From: Rhabdothermincola salaria
Lineage (GTDB): Bacteria > Actinomycetota > Acidimicrobiia > Acidimicrobiales > Acidimicrobilacustridaceae
Length of the DNA: 64,000 nucleotides
Assembly: GCF_021246445.1 (NCBI RefSeq)
Contig: NZ_JAJQXW010000002.1
Location: 1-64,000 of the forward strand
Direction of reading: 5' to 3'
Position numbers and translations under genes: made by a program. Under the pieces are notes generated by a model. The model saw nothing but the letters and a program-made list of their open reading frames with translations. It searched no databases and was not told the DNA's origin. Shown one piece after another: positions 7,543 through 20,123 of the stretch; the first letter of the stretch is position 1, and every line of letters starts with the position of its first letter.

Positions 7543-7556
7543 CGGCAACGTTGCCG
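7543..7556. promoter_or_regulatory. Candidate operator upstream of ehuB (perfect 14-bp palindrome)
   Basis: CGGCAACGTTGCCG is a perfect palindrome with a central CpG, the form typical of LacI/GalR-family operators. It lies 66 bases before the ehuB start. No LacI-type gene is in the window, so the cognate regulator is unknown. Confidence 0.4.
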
Positions 7557-7622
7557 TATGGGTGGGGCCGTAGGGGAGGACACCTGGCCGGTGTCACGAC
7601 TCCCGACGGAAGGAACCCGGCT

Positions 7623-8573
7623 ATGCCCGCATCACGATCCCGACGTACAGGATCACGCTTCTGGCCTCTCGTCGCCCTCTTCGCGGTGATGGCCCTCCTG
7701 TTGGCCGCGTGCGGCAGCGACGACGGCGACGACGAGGCCGGCGGTGGTGGCGGAGGCAGCGACGACTGCACCGCGTCCGACGAGGTCATGGGCGAAGAGG
7801 GCGGGCTGCTGGCCGGCCTCCAGGACGCCGGCTCGGTCGAGGTCGGCATCGCCAACGAGGTGCCCTACGGCTACGAGGACGAGTCCGGCAACGTCACCGG
7901 TGAGGCGCCCGAGGTGGCCCGTGCCGTGCTGTGCGAGCTGGGCATCGGGTCCATCAGCGCCGAGGTCGTCGACTTCGGCAACCTCATCCCCGGCCTGCAG
8001 GCGGGCCAGTTCGACATGATCGCCGCCGGCATGTTCATCAACGCCGAACGCGCCGAGCAGATCCTGTTCTCCGATCCGGACTACTGCGTGTCGGAGTCCC
8101 TGCTGGTACCCGAGGGCAACCCCGACAACCTGAGCGACTACCAGTCGATCATCGACTCGGGGGTCACCGTGGCCGTGCTCCAGGGCGCGGTCGAGGAGGG
8201 CTACCTCGAGACTGCGGGCGTGCCCGACAGCCAGATCGAGCTCTTCGGTGACGTCAACCAGCAGTACGACGCCCTGGCCGCCGATCGCGTGGACGCGGTC
8301 ACCGGTACCTACCTCACCGTGCAGACCCAGGCCGACGCCATGGACGGCTTCGAGGCCGTCGATGGCTTCTTCCCGCTCGACGAGAACGGTGAGGAGATCC
8401 TCGGCTGCGGCGGCTTCGGCTTCGCCGACGAAGAGTTCCGTGATGCGTTCAACCTGAAGCTCGACGAGCTCCAGGAGGACGGCACCGTCATGGAGATCGT
8501 CACCGGCTTCGGCTTCGCCGAGGCCGACGTCGAGGCCGCGGCCGACCTGACCGTGTCGGACCTCACCAGCTGA
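7623..8573 (+). CDS. ehuB: Ectoine/hydroxyectoine-type ABC transporter substrate-binding lipoprotein
   Basis: The 316-residue precursor has an N-terminal membrane-targeting segment and a lipobox LLAAC with lipidation at C30, then an acidic Gly-rich linker. The mature part is a type 2 (SBP_bac_3) solute-binding protein with VEVGIANEVPYGY, FDMIAAGMFI and FSDPDYC. These resemble EhuB, the ectoine/hydroxyectoine receptor, and gene order with two permeases and an ATPase agrees. A polar amino acid ligand is the alternative. The ATG at 7623 has an AAGGA site 8 bases upstream and gives the only start with a sensible signal peptide. Confidence 0.75.
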   Translation: MPASRSRRTGSRFWPLVALFAVMALLLAACGSDDGDDEAGGGGGGSDDCTASDEVMGEEGGLLAGLQDAGSVEVGIANEVPYGYEDESGNVTGEAPEVARAVLCELGIGSISAEVVDFGNLIPGLQAGQFDMIAAGMFINAERAEQILFSDPDYCVSESLLVPEGNPDNLSDYQSIIDSGVTVAVLQGAVEEGYLETAGVPDSQIELFGDVNQQYDALAADRVDAVTGTYLTVQTQADAMDGFEAVDGFFPLDENGEEILGCGGFGFADEEFRDAFNLKLDELQEDGTVMEIVTGFGFAEADVEAAADLTVSDLTS

Positions 8574-8617
8574 ACCCACTGACGCAGGGTGGCCTGGCCC
8601 ACGGGCCTCGCCCCCCT

Positions 8618-8651
8618 CTCGTCCCCGGCCGGTCCGCCGGCCGGGGACGAG
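8618..8651 (+). terminator. Strong intercistronic hairpin between ehuB and ehuC
   Basis: Arms 8618-8632 and 8637-8651 pair perfectly over 15 bp with a 4-base loop. No T-tract follows. Its position after the binding-protein gene suggests partial termination or protection of the upstream mRNA, giving more receptor than permease. Confidence 0.65.
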
Positions 8652-8669
8652 CGCCGTCGGCTCCTCATC

Positions 8670-9404
8670 ATGGACGTCGCCCTTCCCAGCTTCTACTACG
8701 AGCGCCTCTTCGAGGGCATGCTCGTCACCCTGCAGGTCCTGCTCTACGCCTTCCTCATCGGCGTGGCCCTCTCGATCATCCTCGGTGTCGCCCGCCTGTC
8801 CTCGAGCAAGACGGCCCGCACCCTGTCGCTGATCTGGATCGAGTTCACCCGCGGCATCTCGTCGATCGTGCTGCTGTTCTGGATGGCCTACGCCCTCCCG
8901 ATCCTGTTGGGAATCCGCCAGCCCAGCCTGCTGCTCATGGGCTCGATCGCGCTCGGCCTCAACATGGGCGGGTACGGCGGTGAGATCGTCCGCGGCGCCA
9001 TCCAGTCCGTGCCGAAGGGGCAGACGGAGGCGAGCATCGCCCTCAACCTCTCGGAGTTCCAGCGCCTCCGCTACGTGGTCCTGCCCCAGTCGCTGCGGGT
9101 CATCCTCCCGCCCATGGGCAACCTCACCATCGAGATCCTCAAGGGCACCGCTCTGGTGTCGCTCATCAGCCTGTCGGACCTGGCCTTCGAGGGCACCAAG
9201 CTGCGCACGAGCGGCCGCCTCAACCCCGACGCCCCGTCGGCCGCCATGTTGTTCCTCAACATCCTGCTCATCTACTTCGTCCTGTCCCAGATCATCAGCG
9301 GCCTGTACCGCCTGGCCGAGTGGCGTGTGAACCGGCGCTTCGAGGGAGCGCGTACGGAGGTCGAGCTGCCGGACGCCACCACGACGACCGCGGGGGCGGG
9401 CTGA
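8670..9404 (+). CDS. ehuC: Ectoine/hydroxyectoine-type ABC transporter permease
   Basis: The protein of about 244 residues has several transmembrane helices of the His/Glu/Gln/Arg permease type (HisM fold). The EAA loop reads GAIQSVPKGQTEASIALNLS. It forms the membrane channel with the EhuD-type permease. The ATG at 8670 is preferred over an upstream GTG at 8589, because that GTG would translate through the intercistronic hairpin. Its stop overlaps the next start by one base (TGATG), so the two permeases are translationally coupled. The tail is Thr/Ala-rich. Confidence 0.75.
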   Translation: MDVALPSFYYERLFEGMLVTLQVLLYAFLIGVALSIILGVARLSSSKTARTLSLIWIEFTRGISSIVLLFWMAYALPILLGIRQPSLLLMGSIALGLNMGGYGGEIVRGAIQSVPKGQTEASIALNLSEFQRLRYVVLPQSLRVILPPMGNLTIEILKGTALVSLISLSDLAFEGTKLRTSGRLNPDAPSAAMLFLNILLIYFVLSQIISGLYRLAEWRVNRRFEGARTEVELPDATTTTAGAG

Positions 9405-10300
9405 TGACCTCCACCACCGACCCCGAGCTCACCCCCTCGTCCGGGCACGACGACGACGTGGCCGGCGGGGAGGCGCCCGCCCACCACGACCTGACCCCAC
9501 CGAAGGTCCGCCCCTGGTGGCTGCACCCCAAGGCGCTCATCGGCGCCGGGATCGCCATCGTGGTGCTCGCCGTGCTGTGGCGCTTCGGCGGCGGGGACGT
9601 CCGCTTCAGCACCGACTCCCGGCCCGCGCCGGGCAGCACCTTCGACTGGAGCTACTTCTGGGCCCTGGTCCCCGACATGCTCCGAGGTCTGGCGGTCACG
9701 GTCCAGGCCACGCTGGCCGGGTTCGCGCTCGCCGCCGTGCTCGGCCTGGTGCTGGCCATCGCCCGCCGCTCCACGATCAAGGTCATCAGTTGGCCGGTGG
9801 CCGGGTTCATCGAGTTCGTGCGCAGCACGCCACTGCTCATCCAGCTGTTCTTCCTCTACTACGTGCTGCCCGGGTGGGGCTTCACGATGGAGGCCCTGGT
9901 CACCTTGATCCTGGGGCTCGGCATCCACTACGCCACCTACGCGTCGGAGGCGTACCGCGCCGGCATCGACAGCGTGCCCAAGGGGCAGTGGGAGGCCACC
10001 ACCGCCCTCAACCTCGGCCCGATCACCACCTGGTCGTCGGTGATCATCCCCCAGGCCATCCCCAACGTCCTGCCTGCGCTCGGCAACAACCTGATCGCCG
10101 CCTTCAAGGACGCCCCCCTCGGCGCGTCCATCCAGGTGACCGGCATCCTGGCCTTCGCCACCGCCGCGGCCGGGCGCAGCTTCGACGCCGGAGTCGAGCC
10201 CTACACGCTCATCGGCATCGGCTTCTTGATGGTCAGCATCCCCTCGGCCTTCGCCGTTCGACGACTGGAGAAGCGACTCGCGTATGAACGAACCAACTGA
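9404..10300 (+). CDS. ehuD: Ectoine/hydroxyectoine-type ABC transporter permease
   Basis: The 298-residue permease has a long charged cytoplasmic N-terminus (about 45 residues), one extra helix (LIGAGIAIVVLAVLW), then the conserved permease core with EFVRSTPLLIQLFFLYYVLP and the EAA loop GIDSVPKGQWEATTALNL. It pairs with the preceding permease. It overlaps the following ATPase gene by 17 bases. The strong conservation of the RSTPLLIQLFF motif supports the polar amino acid/ectoine subfamily. Confidence 0.78.
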   Translation: MTSTTDPELTPSSGHDDDVAGGEAPAHHDLTPPKVRPWWLHPKALIGAGIAIVVLAVLWRFGGGDVRFSTDSRPAPGSTFDWSYFWALVPDMLRGLAVTVQATLAGFALAAVLGLVLAIARRSTIKVISWPVAGFIEFVRSTPLLIQLFFLYYVLPGWGFTMEALVTLILGLGIHYATYASEAYRAGIDSVPKGQWEATTALNLGPITTWSSVIIPQAIPNVLPALGNNLIAAFKDAPLGASIQVTGILAFATAAAGRSFDAGVEPYTLIGIGFLMVSIPSAFAVRRLEKRLAYERTN

Positions 10301-11123
10301 CCCCATCGACGGCGGGGGGCCGACCACGGGCGCCGTGCCGACCTCCGGTTCCGACGTGCCTGCGGTCCGCATGTGCAACGTCCACAAGGCCTTCGGGGAC
10401 AACGTCGTGCTCAGTGATCTCGACCTCGACGTGGGATCCGGCGAGCGCGTCGTCATCATCGGCCCGAGCGGCTCGGGCAAGACGACCATCCTGCGGGTGA
10501 TCATGACCCTCGAGCGCCCCGACTCGGGCACCATCGAGGTCAACGGACGGCACCTCTACCACGAGGTGAAGCACGGCAAGCTCAAGCCCGCCGGCGAGAA
10601 GCACATCCGGGAGGTGCGCTCCGACGTCGGGATGGTCTTCCAGCACTTCGACCTGTTCCCCCACATGACGGCGCTCGAGAACATCACCCTGGCCCCCATC
10701 AAGGTCAAGGGCATGTCCAAGCACGACGCGCGGACCATGGCCATGGAGCTGCTCGAGAAGGTCGGCCTGTCCGCCCACGCCAACCACACCCCCGGCCAGC
10801 TGTCAGGCGGTCAGAAGCAGCGGGTGGCCATCGCCCGGGCCCTGGCCACCGAACCGGCGGTCATGCTCTTCGACGAGGTCACCTCGGCCCTCGACCCCGA
10901 GTTGGTCGGCGAGGTGCTCACCGTGCTGCGCGACATCGCCGAGGACGGCAAGACCACCATGATGCTCGTCACCCACGAGATGGGCTTCGCCAGCGAGGTG
11001 GCCGATCGGGTGCTCATGTTCGACGCCGGCCAGGTGATCGAGTCGGGCACCCCCAGCGAGGTGCTGCGCGACCCGCAGAACGAGCGGACCAAGGCCTTCC
11101 TGGGCGCCGTGTTCGAGCACTGA
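10284..11123 (+). CDS. ehuA: Ectoine/hydroxyectoine-type ABC transporter ATP-binding protein
   Basis: The 279-residue ABC ATPase has Walker A GPSGSGKTT (60-68), Q-loop Q120, signature LSGGQ (173-177), Walker B VMLFDE (193-198) and a switch His in LVTHEMGF. A Pro/Thr-rich N-terminal extension of about 25 residues precedes the domain. It powers import by the EhuC/EhuD channel. The start codon lies inside ehuD, so expression is coupled. It is the last gene of the operon; no eut-type ectoine breakdown genes follow in the window. Confidence 0.82.
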   Translation: MNEPTDPIDGGGPTTGAVPTSGSDVPAVRMCNVHKAFGDNVVLSDLDLDVGSGERVVIIGPSGSGKTTILRVIMTLERPDSGTIEVNGRHLYHEVKHGKLKPAGEKHIREVRSDVGMVFQHFDLFPHMTALENITLAPIKVKGMSKHDARTMAMELLEKVGLSAHANHTPGQLSGGQKQRVAIARALATEPAVMLFDEVTSALDPELVGEVLTVLRDIAEDGKTTMMLVTHEMGFASEVADRVLMFDAGQVIESGTPSEVLRDPQNERTKAFLGAVFEH

Positions 11124-12606: not shown

Positions 12607-13824
12607 TCAGCCGAAGCGGTCGGCGAGGTGCTCGACCTGGCCGTCGTGGTGATCGAGCAGCACGTCGTTGTAGTGGCGCCCGCCGCGGTGGTGGCCGCCC
12701 TCGGGCGGGACGAAGGCCAGCAGGGCGCTGACCCGGTGGGGCCCCTGGGAAGAGGTCGGGGGCAGCGACGCATGCATGAGGTCGGAGTAGTGCAGCGAGA
12801 CGTCGCCCGCGGCGACGGTGACGGGGACCCCGGTGGGGGCGGCGTGGTGGCGTCCGTCGACGAACGGGAACGTCCCCCGGTGCGAACCGGGCAGCACCCG
12901 CAGCTCCCCCGCCTCCGGGGTGCCCTCGGTGAGGCAGATGGTGACGATCACCGTGGGGCAGTTCAGGGCGTGCCCGCCGAGGCCGCAGTCGCGATGCCAG
13001 GGAAGGTCGGCCAGGCCCTCCACCACGTCGGGCCGCTTCCACAGCACGGTGCCGCTGTCGAGGGCGTCGGGATCGCGGCCTACGAGCGGCTCGGGCACCA
13101 CCGAACGGAGGGCAGCGATGCGGGGATCGTCGGAGAGGCCCCGGAACCGCTCGAAGCGGTTGGCGTCGAGGACCCGGCACAGCACCTCGCGTCCCGAGCT
13201 GTCGCGACCCCACCACGACGCGCCGTCGCCCGGGGTCGCCTCGGCCTGCATGACCTCTGCGTCGGCCAGCATCGCCTCGACCTCCTCGGCGGCGAACACC
13301 CCGCGCACCACCAGGTAGCCGGCCGTGGTGAGGAAGTGGCGCAGCGTGTCGGGCCGACGCTCGCAGTCGTCGAGGGTGAACGACCGGGTGGGGTCGAGTG
13401 GGGACCCGTCGGTGTCGCGGAGGTCGACGCGGTCGGGGTCGAACGGGGGCAGGCCGTGGAACATGGCTCGCAGGCCCGGCTCCCACCGCACGAAGCGCAG
13501 CGGCTTGCCCCGGGTGGCGGTGGCCCGACCGCTGTAGAAGAGCCCGGGGGCGGTGTCGAGGTCGGAGATCAGACCCAACCACGAGTCGAGGTCCATCTCG
13601 ATCACCGTGTCGGCATCGTCGCCGGGCCGCACCGTGACGGTGCCGTCCTCGGGCACGAAGGTGTAGGCGCCGGCCGGGGTGGAGATGGCCAGCGAGCCGA
13701 GGGCCACGACGTCGGGGAGGGCCAGCGGCCCGTTGCCGGCGGCGAGTCGGGCCGGCAGCTCGACGGTGTGGAAGTACTGGAACGACCCGGCGTCGGCGGT
13801 CAAGGGCGTGGCGGTCGCAGCCAT
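12607..13824 (-). CDS. SCP2-like domain fused to a phytanoyl-CoA dioxygenase (PhyH) family oxygenase
   Basis: The first about 125 residues resemble a sterol-carrier-protein-2 fold (IEMDLDSWLGLISDLDTAPG then FYSGRATATRGKPLRFVRW). The rest is an Fe(II)/2-oxoglutarate oxygenase with the facial triad H277-x-D279 in WHRD and distal H351, and a candidate 2-oxoglutarate-binding R364. It probably hydroxylates a lipid or acyl substrate held by the carrier-like domain. TAGGCT ends 6 bases before the ATG. Domain order is visible; the substrate is inferred from family behaviour only. Confidence 0.75.
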   Translation of the reverse strand: MAATATPLTADAGSFQYFHTVELPARLAAGNGPLALPDVVALGSLAISTPAGAYTFVPEDGTVTVRPGDDADTVIEMDLDSWLGLISDLDTAPGLFYSGRATATRGKPLRFVRWEPGLRAMFHGLPPFDPDRVDLRDTDGSPLDPTRSFTLDDCERRPDTLRHFLTTAGYLVVRGVFAAEEVEAMLADAEVMQAEATPGDGASWWGRDSSGREVLCRVLDANRFERFRGLSDDPRIAALRSVVPEPLVGRDPDALDSGTVLWKRPDVVEGLADLPWHRDCGLGGHALNCPTVIVTICLTEGTPEAGELRVLPGSHRGTFPFVDGRHHAAPTGVPVTVAAGDVSLHYSDLMHASLPPTSSQGPHRVSALLAFVPPEGGHHRGGRHYNDVLLDHHDGQVEHLADRFG

Positions 13825-13956
13825 CGGTCCAGCCTAGGGCGCCGCCGCTCACATGTGACGGGCGTCTCACCTGACCCCGGGGCGACCCGCGGCCGGGGCC
13901 CACCCCCACCCCGGGGATCCGCTCCGGTCGTGGCCGATCCCGGCGAGACTGGGCCC

Positions 13957-15171
13957 ATGACCCACCGGGGACCGCTGGAACGAGTGCTGGGCGCCATCGT
14001 GCAACCCGTCGTCGGCGCGGTCGACGTCGACGACGTGGTGAGCCAGGTCGACATCGACCAACTCGTCGCGGAGGTCGACGTGGACGCCGTCATCCGGCGT
14101 GTCGACGTCGACGACGTGGTCAAGCGCGTCGACGTCGACGACGTGATCCGGCGCGTCGACGTGAACTCGGTGATGGACAGGGTGGACGTCGACGGGGTGG
14201 TGCAACGCGTCGACGTGAACGGTCTCGTCGATCGCGTCGACGCCAACGCGCTCGTGGCCCGCGTCGACCCCAACGCCCTCGTCGCGCGCCTCGACGTCGA
14301 CGAGCTGATGGCCCGGGTTGACGTCGAGGCCCTCATGGCCCGCGTCGACCTCGACGACCTCCTCGCCCGGGTCGACCTCGACCAGCTGCTCGCTCGCGTC
14401 GACCTCGACGCCGTGCTGGCCCGCGTCGACGTCGAGACGCTCGTCCGTCGGGCCAACATCGACGCCATCGTGCGCAACGCCAGCCGCGGCGTGTTCGCCA
14501 CCACCATCGACCTCGTCCGCCGGCAGCTCGTGGGGCTGGACTTCCTCGCGACCAGGCTCGTCGCCCGGGTCTTCCGGCGGGCGCCCGACCAGACGACCCT
14601 CGTCAGCGGCACGGTCACCGGACGGGTCGGGGGACCGATCAGCCGCCTGGTCGCCTTCGTGATCGACACCGCGCTGCTCAGCCTCGCCTACGGCCTCTTC
14701 GCCGCCTTCTTCGTGTTCGTCGCCCAGGCCATCACGGGACGATCCGTGGAGGCGCCCGACCTCGGGGCGGCCGTCGTGGGCAGCTACACGTTCCTCGGCT
14801 TCCTCTACTACTGGATCGGTCTCAGCATCACGGGCAAGTCGGTCGGCAAGGGCCTGGTGGGCCTTCGGGTGGTGGCCAACGACCGGTCCCCCATCACCCC
14901 CGGGCGCGCCGCGGTGCGCATGATCGTCTACCCCTTCAGCTTCATCCTGGGGCTCGGCCTCATCCCGATCGTCACCGGTCGTCGCCATCGGGCGCTCCAC
15001 GACGTGGCCGGTCGCGACGTCGTGCTCTACGACTGGGGTGACCGACCCGCCGAGATGCCCGCGCCGCTCACCGCCTTCCTGCGCCGTCAGGCCGGCATCG
15101 ACCTCGACGAGCCCGCCCCGGCCGGGGTGTCGCCGCCGTCGGACCCTCCGTCGACCCCTTCGGCCGCCTGA
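13957..15171 (+). CDS. RDD family membrane protein with 17 nonapeptide repeats
   Basis: The 404-residue protein begins with a short leader (MTHRGPLERVLGAIVQP), then 17 uninterrupted 9-residue repeats of the form VDVDxVVxR (residues 22-174), a charged linker, and an RDD domain with hydrophobic helices (RLVAFVIDTALLSLAYGLF, TFLGFLYYWIGLSI, GKSVGKGLVGLRVV). The tail is Pro/Ser-rich. RDD proteins have been linked to transport and envelope maturation, but this one has no assigned role. The repeats probably form a soluble, regularly alternating solenoid or fibre. GAGACT lies 6 bases before the ATG. Confidence 0.75.
   Translation: MTHRGPLERVLGAIVQPVVGAVDVDDVVSQVDIDQLVAEVDVDAVIRRVDVDDVVKRVDVDDVIRRVDVNSVMDRVDVDGVVQRVDVNGLVDRVDANALVARVDPNALVARLDVDELMARVDVEALMARVDLDDLLARVDLDQLLARVDLDAVLARVDVETLVRRANIDAIVRNASRGVFATTIDLVRRQLVGLDFLATRLVARVFRRAPDQTTLVSGTVTGRVGGPISRLVAFVIDTALLSLAYGLFAAFFVFVAQAITGRSVEAPDLGAAVVGSYTFLGFLYYWIGLSITGKSVGKGLVGLRVVANDRSPITPGRAAVRMIVYPFSFILGLGLIPIVTGRRHRALHDVAGRDVVLYDWGDRPAEMPAPLTAFLRRQAGIDLDEPAPAGVSPPSDPPSTPSAA
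14020..14478 (+). repeat. Seventeen in-frame 27-bp tandem repeats
   Basis: The stretch encodes residues 22-174 of the RDD protein. Each 27-base unit starts near GTCGAC and encodes V-D-[VLI]-[DN]-x-[VL]-[VLM]-x-R. Units diverge gradually: early ones are VDVDDVVKR-like and later ones VDLDDLLAR-like, with the last reading ANIDAIVRN. Confidence 0.9.
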
Positions 15172-15229
15172 TCGCCGCCCTCCAGGCGAGCGCCCGCCGG
15201 CCCGCCGGCGTCCCTGCCAGCATGGGGCC

Positions 15230-15637
15230 ATGAGCGATCCCGAGGTCTTCCACCTGCCGGACGTGCCCGTGCACCTGGGCCTCGGGGCCCGCGCCGTGCC
15301 CCAGGAGCGCTTCGACGGGTCCCTCGCCTGGTACGACCGCTACGTCGAGCGCACCGACGCCGACGGCAGCGAGGGCCGCCTCGTGTCCATGGCCACGTTC
15401 GACGCGCCCTGGGTGGTGTGGGAGGTGCACCCCAGCGGCGACGAGCTGGTGGTGTGCCTGACGGGCACCATCACCTTGCACCAGGAGCACCCGGACGGGA
15501 CCGAGTCCATGGCGGTGCTGCACCCCGGCGACGCCGTGGTCAACGCGCCGGGCGTGTGGCACACCGCCGACGTCGACGAGCGGGCCATCGCCCTGTTCGT
15601 GACCGCCGGGGTCGGGACCGAGCACCGCCCGCGGTGA
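15230..15637 (+). CDS. Small cupin-domain protein
   Basis: The 135-residue protein is a single cupin barrel: WVVWEVHPSGDELVVCLTG (motif 1, with one His and an ELVV stretch) and HPGDAVVNAPGVWHTADV (motif 2). It may bind a metal and a small ligand, or act as a sugar-type or polyketide-cyclase-like enzyme; no specific reaction can be named. A CAGCAT hexamer ends 6 bases before the ATG. It follows the RDD gene by about 58 bases and may be cotranscribed. Confidence 0.7.
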   Translation: MSDPEVFHLPDVPVHLGLGARAVPQERFDGSLAWYDRYVERTDADGSEGRLVSMATFDAPWVVWEVHPSGDELVVCLTGTITLHQEHPDGTESMAVLHPGDAVVNAPGVWHTADVDERAIALFVTAGVGTEHRPR

Positions 15638-17666: not shown

Positions 17667-20123
17667 GTGACGAAGCACCGCCGAGACCGCCGCTCATCGC
17701 CCGCCCCCACCAAGACCGCTCCACCACTGGGGTTCCTCGGACGCGGTGGGCGTTTCGTCTCCCGCCACCACCGCTGGTTCGCCATCGTCTGGGTGCTGCT
17801 GATCGTGCTGGCCGGCTACCTCAACGGCCTCTACGGCAAGAGCCTGTCGGACAGCTTCCGCATCAACGGCACGGACTCCCAGGCCGCCTACGACTTGATG
17901 GCCGACCGCTTCCAGGGCCAGGAGGGGGCGACGGCCACCGTCGTCTACCAGGTCCCCGACGGCCAGTCGCTCACCGACGCCGCCAACGCCAAGGTCGTCG
18001 CCGACGTCACCGACGCCCTCTCCAAGGCCGACGGGGTGGCGTCGGTCCCGAACCCGATCTCCTCCGACCCCAAAGAGGCCCTGGCCCAGTACGCCGCCAA
18101 CCTCGACGCCGACCAAGCAGCCGCGGTCAACGCGCTCGCTCCCGACCTCCCTCCGTCGCTGTCCAGCGACGGACGCACGGCCTACGCCACGGTCACGTTC
18201 ACCGACACGTTGGTGGACCTCATGGAGGCCCAACCGATCAACCCCGACGAAGAAGCCACCGCCTACGACAACCCGTACAACACATTGCAGAAGGCGGTCG
18301 ACAGCGTCGACACCGGCCCCGTGACCGTCGCCATCGGAGGCCCGGTCGCCGACAGCTGGAACGCCCCCGTGTCGTGGTGGGCCAACCACGCCGACGAGGT
18401 GGGCCTCGCCCTCGGCGCCATCCTCTTGCTGGTCGCCTTCGGCTCGCTGTTCGGCATGGCCATCCCCATCGCCACCGCCCTGTTCGGCGCCGTGGTCGCC
18501 AGCGGGTTCGTCTACCTGCTGGCCAGCATCATCAGCGTCTCGTCAGCCGCCCCTCCCGTCACCTTGATGATCAGCATCGGCGTCGGGCTCGACTACTCGC
18601 TGCTCATCGTCACCCGCTACCGGTCGTTCCTCGCCGAGGGCTACGAGCCCCACGATGCCGTGGGGATGGCCATGGCCTCCGCCGGCAAGGCGGCCGTGTT
18701 CGCCGGTCTCACCGTCTGCATCGCCCTGCTGGGGCTCCTGCTCGTGCCCATCCCACTGGTGCAGACCCTCGGGGTGGCCGCCGCCATCGGCGTCGCCGTG
18801 ATGATCCTGGCCGCCACCACGTTGCTGCCCACCCTGCTGGGCTTCGCCGGCAACAAGATCGACCGGGTCCGGCTCCCCTTCAACAAGGAGGACCCCGACG
18901 CCGATCCCGAGAAGAGCTTCTGGGGCCGCTTCGCCCACACCATGTCGAACCGTCCCTGGTTCTCGCTCCTCGGCGGGCTGGCCGTGCTGGTCGTGCTGGC
19001 CTTCCCCTTCCTCAGCATCGACTTCGGGATGCCCGACGACAGCTCCCAGCCGTCGGACCTCTCCCAACGCACCGCCTTCGTCGAGATCGACTCGGCGTTC
19101 GGTCCGGGCACCAACGGTCCGCTGGTGGTGGCCGTCGCCCTGCCCACCGACGACCCGGGCAACTTCGAGTCGGCCCTCACCACGCTCGACCCCGTGAGCA
19201 AAGCCGTCGCCGCGCTCCAGCCCCCCAACACCGTCGAGGGCATCCAGTACTCGGTGGGCCCCATCCCCAACGACGTCAACGCCACCACCGCGGTGATCTA
19301 CAGCCTCACCCCCACCACGGGACCCGACGACCAGGCCACCACCGAGCTCGTCGAACGCCTCCGGTCCGACCTGGCCACGGCCACGTCGGGCACGCAGCTC
19401 GAGGCGCACGTCGGCGGCAACACCGCCACCCTCATCGACCTCACGAAGCTGGTGGTGCAGTACCTGCCCTACGTCATCGCGGCAGTGGTGCTGGGTTCGT
19501 TCATCTTGTTGACCCTGGTCTTCCGGTCCATCCTCGTGCCGCTCAAGGCCGCCTTCATGAACCTCATCTCGATCAGCGCGGCCTACGGCGTGGTCGTGGC
19601 GGTCTTCCAGTGGGGCTGGGCCCGCCAGGTGGTGGGCCTCTCCGAGACGATCCCGATCGTGTCGTTCGTGCCGCTCGTGATGTTCGTGATCCTCTTCGGG
19701 CTCTCCATGGACTACGAGGTCTTCTTGATGTCGCGCATCCGCGAGGAGTGGGACCGCACCCATGAACCGCGCACGTCGGTCGTGCTCGGGGTGGCCAACA
19801 CGGCGCGCGTCATCACCACTGCGGCGCTGATCATGATCGCCGTGTTCGCCTCGTTCATCACCAACGCCAACCCCACGGTGAAGCTCATCGGCTTCGGCAT
19901 GGCGGTCGCCGTGCTCATCGACTCGACCATCGTGCGCATGGTGTTGGTGCCGGCGATCATGGAGCTGCTCGGCAAGCGGGCCTGGTGGTTCCCGACGTGG
20001 CTCGAGTGGCTTCCCAAACTCGACGTGGAGGGCCCGTCGTCTCCGGCTCCGGCCGCCACCCCGGCCACCCCTGCGGCGGGGCCGACTCCCCCATCAGCCA
20101 CCGGCGCCGACGCCGAGCGCTGA
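17667..20123 (+). CDS. MMPL family RND transporter
   Basis: The 818-residue protein shows duplicated RND halves. Each has one N-terminal helix, a periplasmic domain (about 60-240 and 450-610) and a helical bundle (about 245-440 and 615-780). Conserved segments include GLDYSLLIVTRYRSF and GLSMDYEVFLMSRIREEW. Such proteins export lipids or cell-envelope glycolipids using the proton gradient. A Pro/Ala-rich cytoplasmic tail ends it. The start is GTG at 17667, with TAGCGT 8 bases upstream. No lipid synthase adjoins, so the cargo is unknown. Confidence 0.9.
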   Translation: MTKHRRDRRSSPAPTKTAPPLGFLGRGGRFVSRHHRWFAIVWVLLIVLAGYLNGLYGKSLSDSFRINGTDSQAAYDLMADRFQGQEGATATVVYQVPDGQSLTDAANAKVVADVTDALSKADGVASVPNPISSDPKEALAQYAANLDADQAAAVNALAPDLPPSLSSDGRTAYATVTFTDTLVDLMEAQPINPDEEATAYDNPYNTLQKAVDSVDTGPVTVAIGGPVADSWNAPVSWWANHADEVGLALGAILLLVAFGSLFGMAIPIATALFGAVVASGFVYLLASIISVSSAAPPVTLMISIGVGLDYSLLIVTRYRSFLAEGYEPHDAVGMAMASAGKAAVFAGLTVCIALLGLLLVPIPLVQTLGVAAAIGVAVMILAATTLLPTLLGFAGNKIDRVRLPFNKEDPDADPEKSFWGRFAHTMSNRPWFSLLGGLAVLVVLAFPFLSIDFGMPDDSSQPSDLSQRTAFVEIDSAFGPGTNGPLVVAVALPTDDPGNFESALTTLDPVSKAVAALQPPNTVEGIQYSVGPIPNDVNATTAVIYSLTPTTGPDDQATTELVERLRSDLATATSGTQLEAHVGGNTATLIDLTKLVVQYLPYVIAAVVLGSFILLTLVFRSILVPLKAAFMNLISISAAYGVVVAVFQWGWARQVVGLSETIPIVSFVPLVMFVILFGLSMDYEVFLMSRIREEWDRTHEPRTSVVLGVANTARVITTAALIMIAVFASFITNANPTVKLIGFGMAVAVLIDSTIVRMVLVPAIMELLGKRAWWFPTWLEWLPKLDVEGPSSPAPAATPATPAAGPTPPSATGADAER

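Follow-up and report, generated by a model that had tools for sequence, protein, structure and literature searches.

A nine-residue repeat paired with RDD membrane proteins in actinobacteria: a candidate two-part module

What might a long, gapless array of nine-residue units do in front of a membrane domain of the RDD family, and is the combination peculiar to one gene? The question is raised by a gene of Rhabdothermincola salaria within a 64,000-nucleotide stretch of contig NZ_JAJQXW010000002.1, positions 1 to 64,000, the whole of which is here called the window. The gene (13957..15171, +) begins at an ATG and stays open for 404 residues, encoding in order an N-terminal helix, 17 nine-residue units, a linker helix, an RDD domain and a tail. 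RDD proteins themselves are widespread among bacteria, and no agreed role emerges for them from the available portions of four papers (PMC5996927, PMC7568657, PMC1810536, PMC12419801).

The membrane domain is the recognizable part. Residues 225-351 (14629..15009, +) match the Pfam RDD family PF06271 (E 9.1e-19, 68.6 bits against a cut-off of 24.1). The RDD signature, as described in the part of PMC5996927 available to us, places an Arg at the beginning of membrane helix 1, an Asp halfway along that helix and a second Asp near the C-terminus; in the window protein these are R230, D237 and D349. AlphaFold2, the only predictor used for this domain, places helices at 227-260, 270-292 and 315-330. 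Beyond the domain, a Tyr-Asp-Trp at residues 358-360 (15028..15036, +) is a C-terminal motif typical of the repeat-linked RDDs described below. On the other side, residues 175-221 (14479..14619, +) form a linker that includes RRQLVGLD and belongs largely to a long model helix at 168-205. Model confidence for residues 181-200 of the linker differed between runs (pLDDT about 80 in the full AlphaFold2 run vs about 40 in a shorter one); its R, R, Q, V and D columns are invariant in a 12-sequence alignment and looser in distant relatives. The first 21 residues (13957..14019, +) make an amphipathic helix (hydrophobic moment 0.45; residues 6-21 in the model, at low confidence) that may cap the repeat, and a similar stretch also precedes the repeat in some relatives.

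The gene is flanked on its 5′ side by a phytanoyl-CoA dioxygenase gene on the opposite strand (12607-13824; Pfam PhyH) and on its other side by a short frame (15229-15637) without a Pfam match at E 0.01. Further off in the window, frames at 7551-11123 (+) resemble, from their translations, the binding protein, two permeases and ATPase of an amino-acid ABC transporter, and 17667-20123 (+) encodes an MMPL-family exporter (E 1e-78). A long antisense frame, 13867-15231 (-), also reads VDVD, because the Val-Asp codons GTCGAC are their own reverse complement. We take the plus strand to be coding and the antisense frame to be its shadow, since RDD homology, relatives and the purifying selection seen in close pairs of relatives are all found in the plus-strand frame. 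RDD is matched six times in the host genome at E 1e-6 or better, and in a protein search of that genome only the window RDD gene, its antisense shadow apart, matched the repeat part.

Residues 22-174 (14020..14478, +) are 17 consecutive nine-residue units without a gap, as had been reported by a sequence-only reading of this DNA. The consensus given there, V-D-[VLI]-[DN]-x-[VL]-[VLM]-x-R, captured a real regularity, yet taken literally it matches only 7 of the 17 units. A looser pattern, [VLIA][DN][VLIAP][DNE]x[VLI][VLIM]x[RQEN], which we defined after inspecting the units, matches all 17; in 20,000 shuffles of the 153 residues, its longest in-register run was 2. Position 2 is Asp in 16 units and Asn in the other, position 9 is Arg in 14, and the repeat as a whole has a net charge of -18. 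The units are old, to judge by the DNA identity between them, which averages 65%. Pfam recognizes RDD alone in the window protein, with neither a repeat family nor a VanZ domain; NCBIfam gave no match to it, and no solved structure is similar to it in sequence at E 1 or better. The separate repeat proteins from split loci that were submitted (3 + 3) likewise returned no Pfam family. In all the proteins tested, the repeat part is covered by no Pfam or NCBIfam model.

With the whole window protein as query, 22 of 61 genomes were matched at E 0.001 (its own included), many in the RDD part alone, together with 12 public contigs. Wider searches used a profile of the last repeats and the linker from which RDD was excluded, yet which was built from RDD-linked members, a bias by which lone repeat proteins lacking the linker may escape detection. 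Within the class, 66 of 394 genomes had a match to this profile at E 0.001, and within the phylum 31 of 396 had one at E 1e-6, the host genome being included in each count. The resulting set has one row per locus and comprises 102 loci, after removal of five duplicate rows and exclusion of L044 and L173, which have no repeat match. RDD shares a frame with the repeat in 39 loci, occupies the following same-strand frame in 59, and is absent from four. The sequence-only reading had overlooked this: more often than being part of a fusion, the repeat is a protein of its own, with its gene overlapping that for RDD or lying next to it. The full-length query supplied 13 of the loci, where RDD may have aided detection; the 89 that came from the RDD-free profile divide into 32 fused, 54 split and three without RDD, so that RDD accompanies the repeat in 86 of 89. 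The loci without RDD are L163 and L172 (contig end), L166, where RDD is absent from the available flanking sequence and the repeat frame may itself be an antisense shadow, and L167. This last is a 13-unit repeat protein without linker or RDD; its genome encodes a fused copy as well.

The split pairs are tightly arranged. A candidate start codon lies 4 bases inside the stop of the repeat gene in 46 of the 59 pairs and 1 base inside in four; nine pairs have neither overlap, and the next commonest offset occurs four times. The stop is TGA in all 60 split rows (one duplicate included), preceded by A or G in 52. Overlaps of 4 or 1 bases are the usual sign of translational coupling, and we infer such coupling between the split repeat and RDD genes. 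Across these related bacteria the repeat would nearly always be made together with, or fused to, the same type of RDD.

A split pair is found in L045 (PBTV01000002.1), filed as Rubrivirga, of another phylum; its RDD nests among actinobacterial RDDs in the tree, pointing to transfer or to a mis-binned contig. The same repeat-RDD frame is present in a Frankiaceae bin and a Chloroflexi bin from one sampling series (L034, L035), an indication that one of these bins has been misassigned.

The RDD domains that accompany the repeat are a subfamily. In a careful tree of 127 RDD domains, which omits the window RDD and some relatives, the repeat-linked domains are set apart by a single branch supported at 99/96. 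A quick tree of 140 rows, made with a shorter search and including the window, separates 102 linked RDDs from 38 others by one branch (support 99); in it the rows nearest to the window RDD by path are those of its same-genus and same-family relatives. The 102 linked RDDs are the 98 loci with an RDD plus L013-L016, and the equality with the 102 repeat loci is coincidental. Although first labelled unlinked, L013-L016 group with the linked RDDs, and they are counted as linked because their upstream gene has the same cap and linker, with longer, decayed repeats. Two motifs mark the subfamily, one of Gly..Ala-Gly type before the first membrane helix and one of Tyr-x-Trp type near the C-terminal end. 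Each is present in 95 of the 102 linked RDDs vs 1 of the 38 others, counted on stretches including 45 extra residues; a count on the cut domains gave the same picture. The signature residues R230, D237 and D349 are retained in 99, 100 and 99% of the linked RDDs.

The fused state changes six times on the careful tree (without the window), at least two of the changes being forced by well-supported branches, and seven times on the quick tree (with the window), at least three being forced. Fusion has therefore probably arisen more than once, and fission could account for some of the changes. When separate genes become fused independently, this is classically taken as evidence that the encoded proteins act together.

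What shape would the repeat have? It had been expected to form a charged solenoid or fibre. AlphaFold2 predicts it to be helical, with no call of disorder and with low confidence: pLDDT is 41-64 in the full model and averages 50 in a second run on residues 75-212. In the full model, 14 of the 17 units consist of a seven-residue helix and a two-residue turn; of the other three, two have shorter helices and the last is continuous with the linker helix. The second run gave the 7+2 pattern in 10 of 11 units. At pTM 0.46 and 0.30, respectively, the helix-turn pattern is present and the packing is unreliable, and Foldseek found no PDB fold at E 0.001 or better with either model. The expected charge is borne out, the units are predicted to be helical, and a solenoid or fibre is possible. 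The three best Foldseek matches of the full model, noted for the RDD domain (14629..15009), are three peroxin chains of a single complex, 7t92; they are weak (best E 0.05, probability 0.98, TM-scores 0.24 and 0.31) and nothing is built on them.

The best independent evidence for a helical unit is natural variation in its length. We compiled 989 units, chosen by our own scoring. Position 1 is Val, Ile or Leu in 93% and position 2 Asp in 91%; positions 1, 3, 6 and 7 are hydrophobic, 70% have Arg at position 9, and 6% have Pro at position 3. A helix start is known to be marked by an Asp cap, by Pro within its first turn and by hydrophobic side chains at positions 1 and 6. The non-zero interior gaps between units number 57, including 24 of 4 residues, eight of 1, seven of 13 and five of 9. 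The 4-residue inserts produce 24 units of 13 residues, in 18 loci, and two loci (L165, L169) have three such units consecutively. Position 10 of the 13-residue units is hydrophobic in 24 of 24 and position 11 in 21, vs only 4 to 6 of 24 at positions 8, 9, 12 and 13; positions 10 and 11 played no part in choosing these units. This spacing suggests that the 13-residue unit is a helix longer by one turn that retains its hydrophobic face. Each nine-residue unit is probably an Asp cap followed by a seven-residue helix, as in the models. Units of the partner gene in L013-L016, L165 and L170 are lengthened from 9 to 13-~18 residues, with the linker retained.

The net charge of the repeat is negative at every one of the 102 loci, averaging -1.2 per unit, and the number of units varies. 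The window has 17 units, its same-genus relative 16 and its same-family relative 18; across the loci the median is 9 and the maximum 24, with 6 to 24 units in 92. Of the ten loci with fewer than six, L155 and L164 are cut by contig ends, L166 is perhaps a shadow, and in the remaining loci the repeats are short or have drifted. Near-identical adjacent units are seen in some loci (L142, L180). The comparison of repeat number in relatives, which the sequence-only reading had proposed, thus finds the repeat present in them in differing numbers. Neither of the outcomes named there as counting against the reading, a disordered prediction or relatives lacking the repeat, was observed, albeit at low structural confidence. 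That reading's cytoplasmic scaffold or ruler tied to the membrane survives in part: the repeat is probably cytosolic and membrane-tied, but a ruler of fixed length is unlikely and is rejected in that form, as the nearest relatives differ in unit number. A length-tunable surface with a putative binding role fits better.

Repeat dN/dS is 0.035-0.36 in eight closer pairs of relatives, some of which share a locus and one of which has saturated silent sites; it is lower than in the rest of the same frame in six pairs and higher in two. The repeat is under purifying selection in these close pairs. The window and its same-genus relative (0.61 for the repeat, 0.80 for the rest) are a pair that says little about selection; when their unit orders were compared, 10 of 10,000 permutations were as good.

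From these results we think it fairly probable that the module consists of a cytosolic helical-repeat subunit and an RDD membrane protein, arranged as follows. The window gene would be one fused form of an actinobacterial two-part module. One part would be a cytosolic protein of short helices forming an extended acidic helical repeat, each nine-residue unit supplying an Asp cap followed by roughly seven helical residues and then a turn; the unit geometry here is that of the models. The other part would be an RDD-family membrane protein with three membrane segments, the first of them adjoined by the linker helix that ends the repeat part. Cytosolic placement is suggested because no signal peptide was seen and the membrane domain lies downstream; a physical complex of repeat and RDD is suggested by the genes alone. 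The older arrangement was probably two translationally coupled genes, with later fusions, probably more than one. Most likely the repeat part would serve as a dedicated subunit for binding some ligand or partner in the cytosol, though any naming of that partner would be a guess, and we guess further that through the linker helix it positions or regulates the RDD domain. Our confidence in a regulatory or adaptor role on the RDD protein is clearly below that in the module.

More speculatively, the repeat may be a helical solenoid of a new class, in which every nine-residue unit contributes a single helix about seven residues long, serving as the cytosolic half of an undescribed RDD complex; we hold this only tentatively. 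Its length would evolve by whole units and by single turns (9, 13, ~18 residues), and it would present, for example, a cytosolic partner, a lipid or an ion to a cytoplasm-facing site of the RDD protein. A one-helix solenoid unit of nine residues would be shorter than any known to us. The RDD family is already known; the repeat may be a new fold class. In the literature, mostly outside subscription journals, we recognised no account of a repeat-RDD module among titles and the starts of abstracts, and among the matches listed for nine-residue repeats, again at that depth, RTX was the main subject.

The same structural results bear on a different picture, in which the repeat is a flexible or membrane-lying amphipathic chain, not a solenoid, that tethers the RDD protein to the surface of the membrane or folds only on binding. 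It would account for the low pLDDT across the repeat and the absence of a PDB fold at E 0.001 or better, and the short helices of three window units are indeed one-sided (hydrophobic moment 0.51-0.78). However, the strict nine-residue register, the purifying selection in close pairs and the turn-wise lengthening of units all suggest packing, and acidity in 102 of 102 loci disfavours lying on an acidic bacterial membrane, so that we judge such a chain unlikely. RTX is the other well-known bacterial nine-residue repeat, and its equal unit length, along with a D-x-hydrophobic stretch in many of our units, could suggest a divalent-ion-binding roll of the same kind. The RTX consensus, Gly-Gly-x-Gly-(Asn/Asp)-Asp-x-hydrophobic-x in the portion of PMC7354457 available to us, has glycines that fail here: Gly-Gly-x-Gly occurs in none of the 17 window units, two of which have a single Gly. 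The predicted structure is helix rather than strand, and the non-zero gaps are of 4 residues in 24 of 57 cases and of 9 in only five. On glycines, predicted helix and insert lengths we reject the roll, which seems to us scarcely credible.

Two further explanations concern function. A spacer generated by tandem duplication, with no function of its own, would be free to vary as the repeat does between 6 and 24 units in 92 loci, and to carry near-identical neighbours as in L142 and L180; but it would hardly show purifying selection between closer relatives, almost invariable association with a single RDD subfamily, window units as old as 65% mean DNA identity implies, or a unit order whose agreement with the same-genus relative is equalled by just 0.1% of 10,000 permutations. 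We regard it as very improbable. The RDD part might instead be a cation/proton antiporter of the Halobacillus type, with the acidic repeat as its cytosolic ion sensor or gate. The Halobacillus andaensis RDD protein has Na+(Li+,K+)/H+ antiport (PMC5996927, in the part available), the repeat is rich in Asp, and R321 and D349 are retained in 100 and 101 of the 102 linked RDDs. Against this, at the position equivalent by spacing to the essential D158 (353) the window protein has Arg, and only 5 of the 102 linked RDDs have Asp; at the equivalent of R124, again by spacing, it has Gly, with Arg in 49 of the 102. SppI, another RDD protein, is a protease inhibitor, and its deletion or overexpression left the salt and alkali resistance of Bacillus subtilis unchanged, according to the available part of PMC7568657. 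An antiport function for the module is, in our estimate, decidedly improbable, and the two-part module of helical-repeat subunit and RDD protein remains the reading we prefer.

Flanking genes add little to it. In the frames that flank the 102 loci, conservation of a third neighbour is nowhere broad enough to indicate function. ABC ATPase-like frames occur in 13 loci, at scattered positions and on both strands; one membrane-protein family, with a sub-threshold Pfam match, lies near the repeat gene in seven loci (e.g., L042, 4619-5863, -); and several families recur in seven loci of one related group, none being general. A defence system and a mobile origin were considered and rejected: PADLOC gave no match for the four proteins tested, and tblastn gave none in plasmids or phages.

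A dedicated partner of RDD, fused in some species and the product of an overlapping gene in others, offers a handle on RDD function. If the repeat folds, it would provide structural biologists and protein designers with an unusually short helical unit whose length has been tuned in evolution by single turns.

Comparison with known systems places the module as follows. The alpha-solenoids TPR, HEAT and TALE have units of about 30-45 residues, each with two or more helices. Like them, the repeat is predicted to have tandem helical units in variable number; unlike them, its unit is nine residues with one short predicted helix, and it matches none in sequence or fold. SppI (YteJ) of Bacillus subtilis is alike in being an RDD protein that works with a partner, the membrane protease SppA, which it inhibits (PMC7568657, in part); the partner of the window RDD is instead the repeat. 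The Halobacillus andaensis protein shares the RDD signature, while two of its four antiport-essential residues are, by spacing, not generally retained here, and the available part of PMC5996927 mentions no repeat. Mas proteins, the RDD proteins of mce operons, have a transport role that was proposed without published evidence, by the part of PMC1810536 available. VanZ-RDD fusions, for which a conserved intramembrane binding site facing the cytoplasm has been proposed (PMC12419801, in part), similarly join RDD to another module, which in the window is the repeat, with no VanZ by Pfam. Within PF06271 as a whole, the window protein is an ordinary member in its R/D/D signature and its Pfam score of 68.6, with three membrane helices predicted by the model, and is distinguished by belonging to a subfamily of its own, with Gly..Ala-Gly and Tyr-x-Trp motifs and a dedicated repeat partner.
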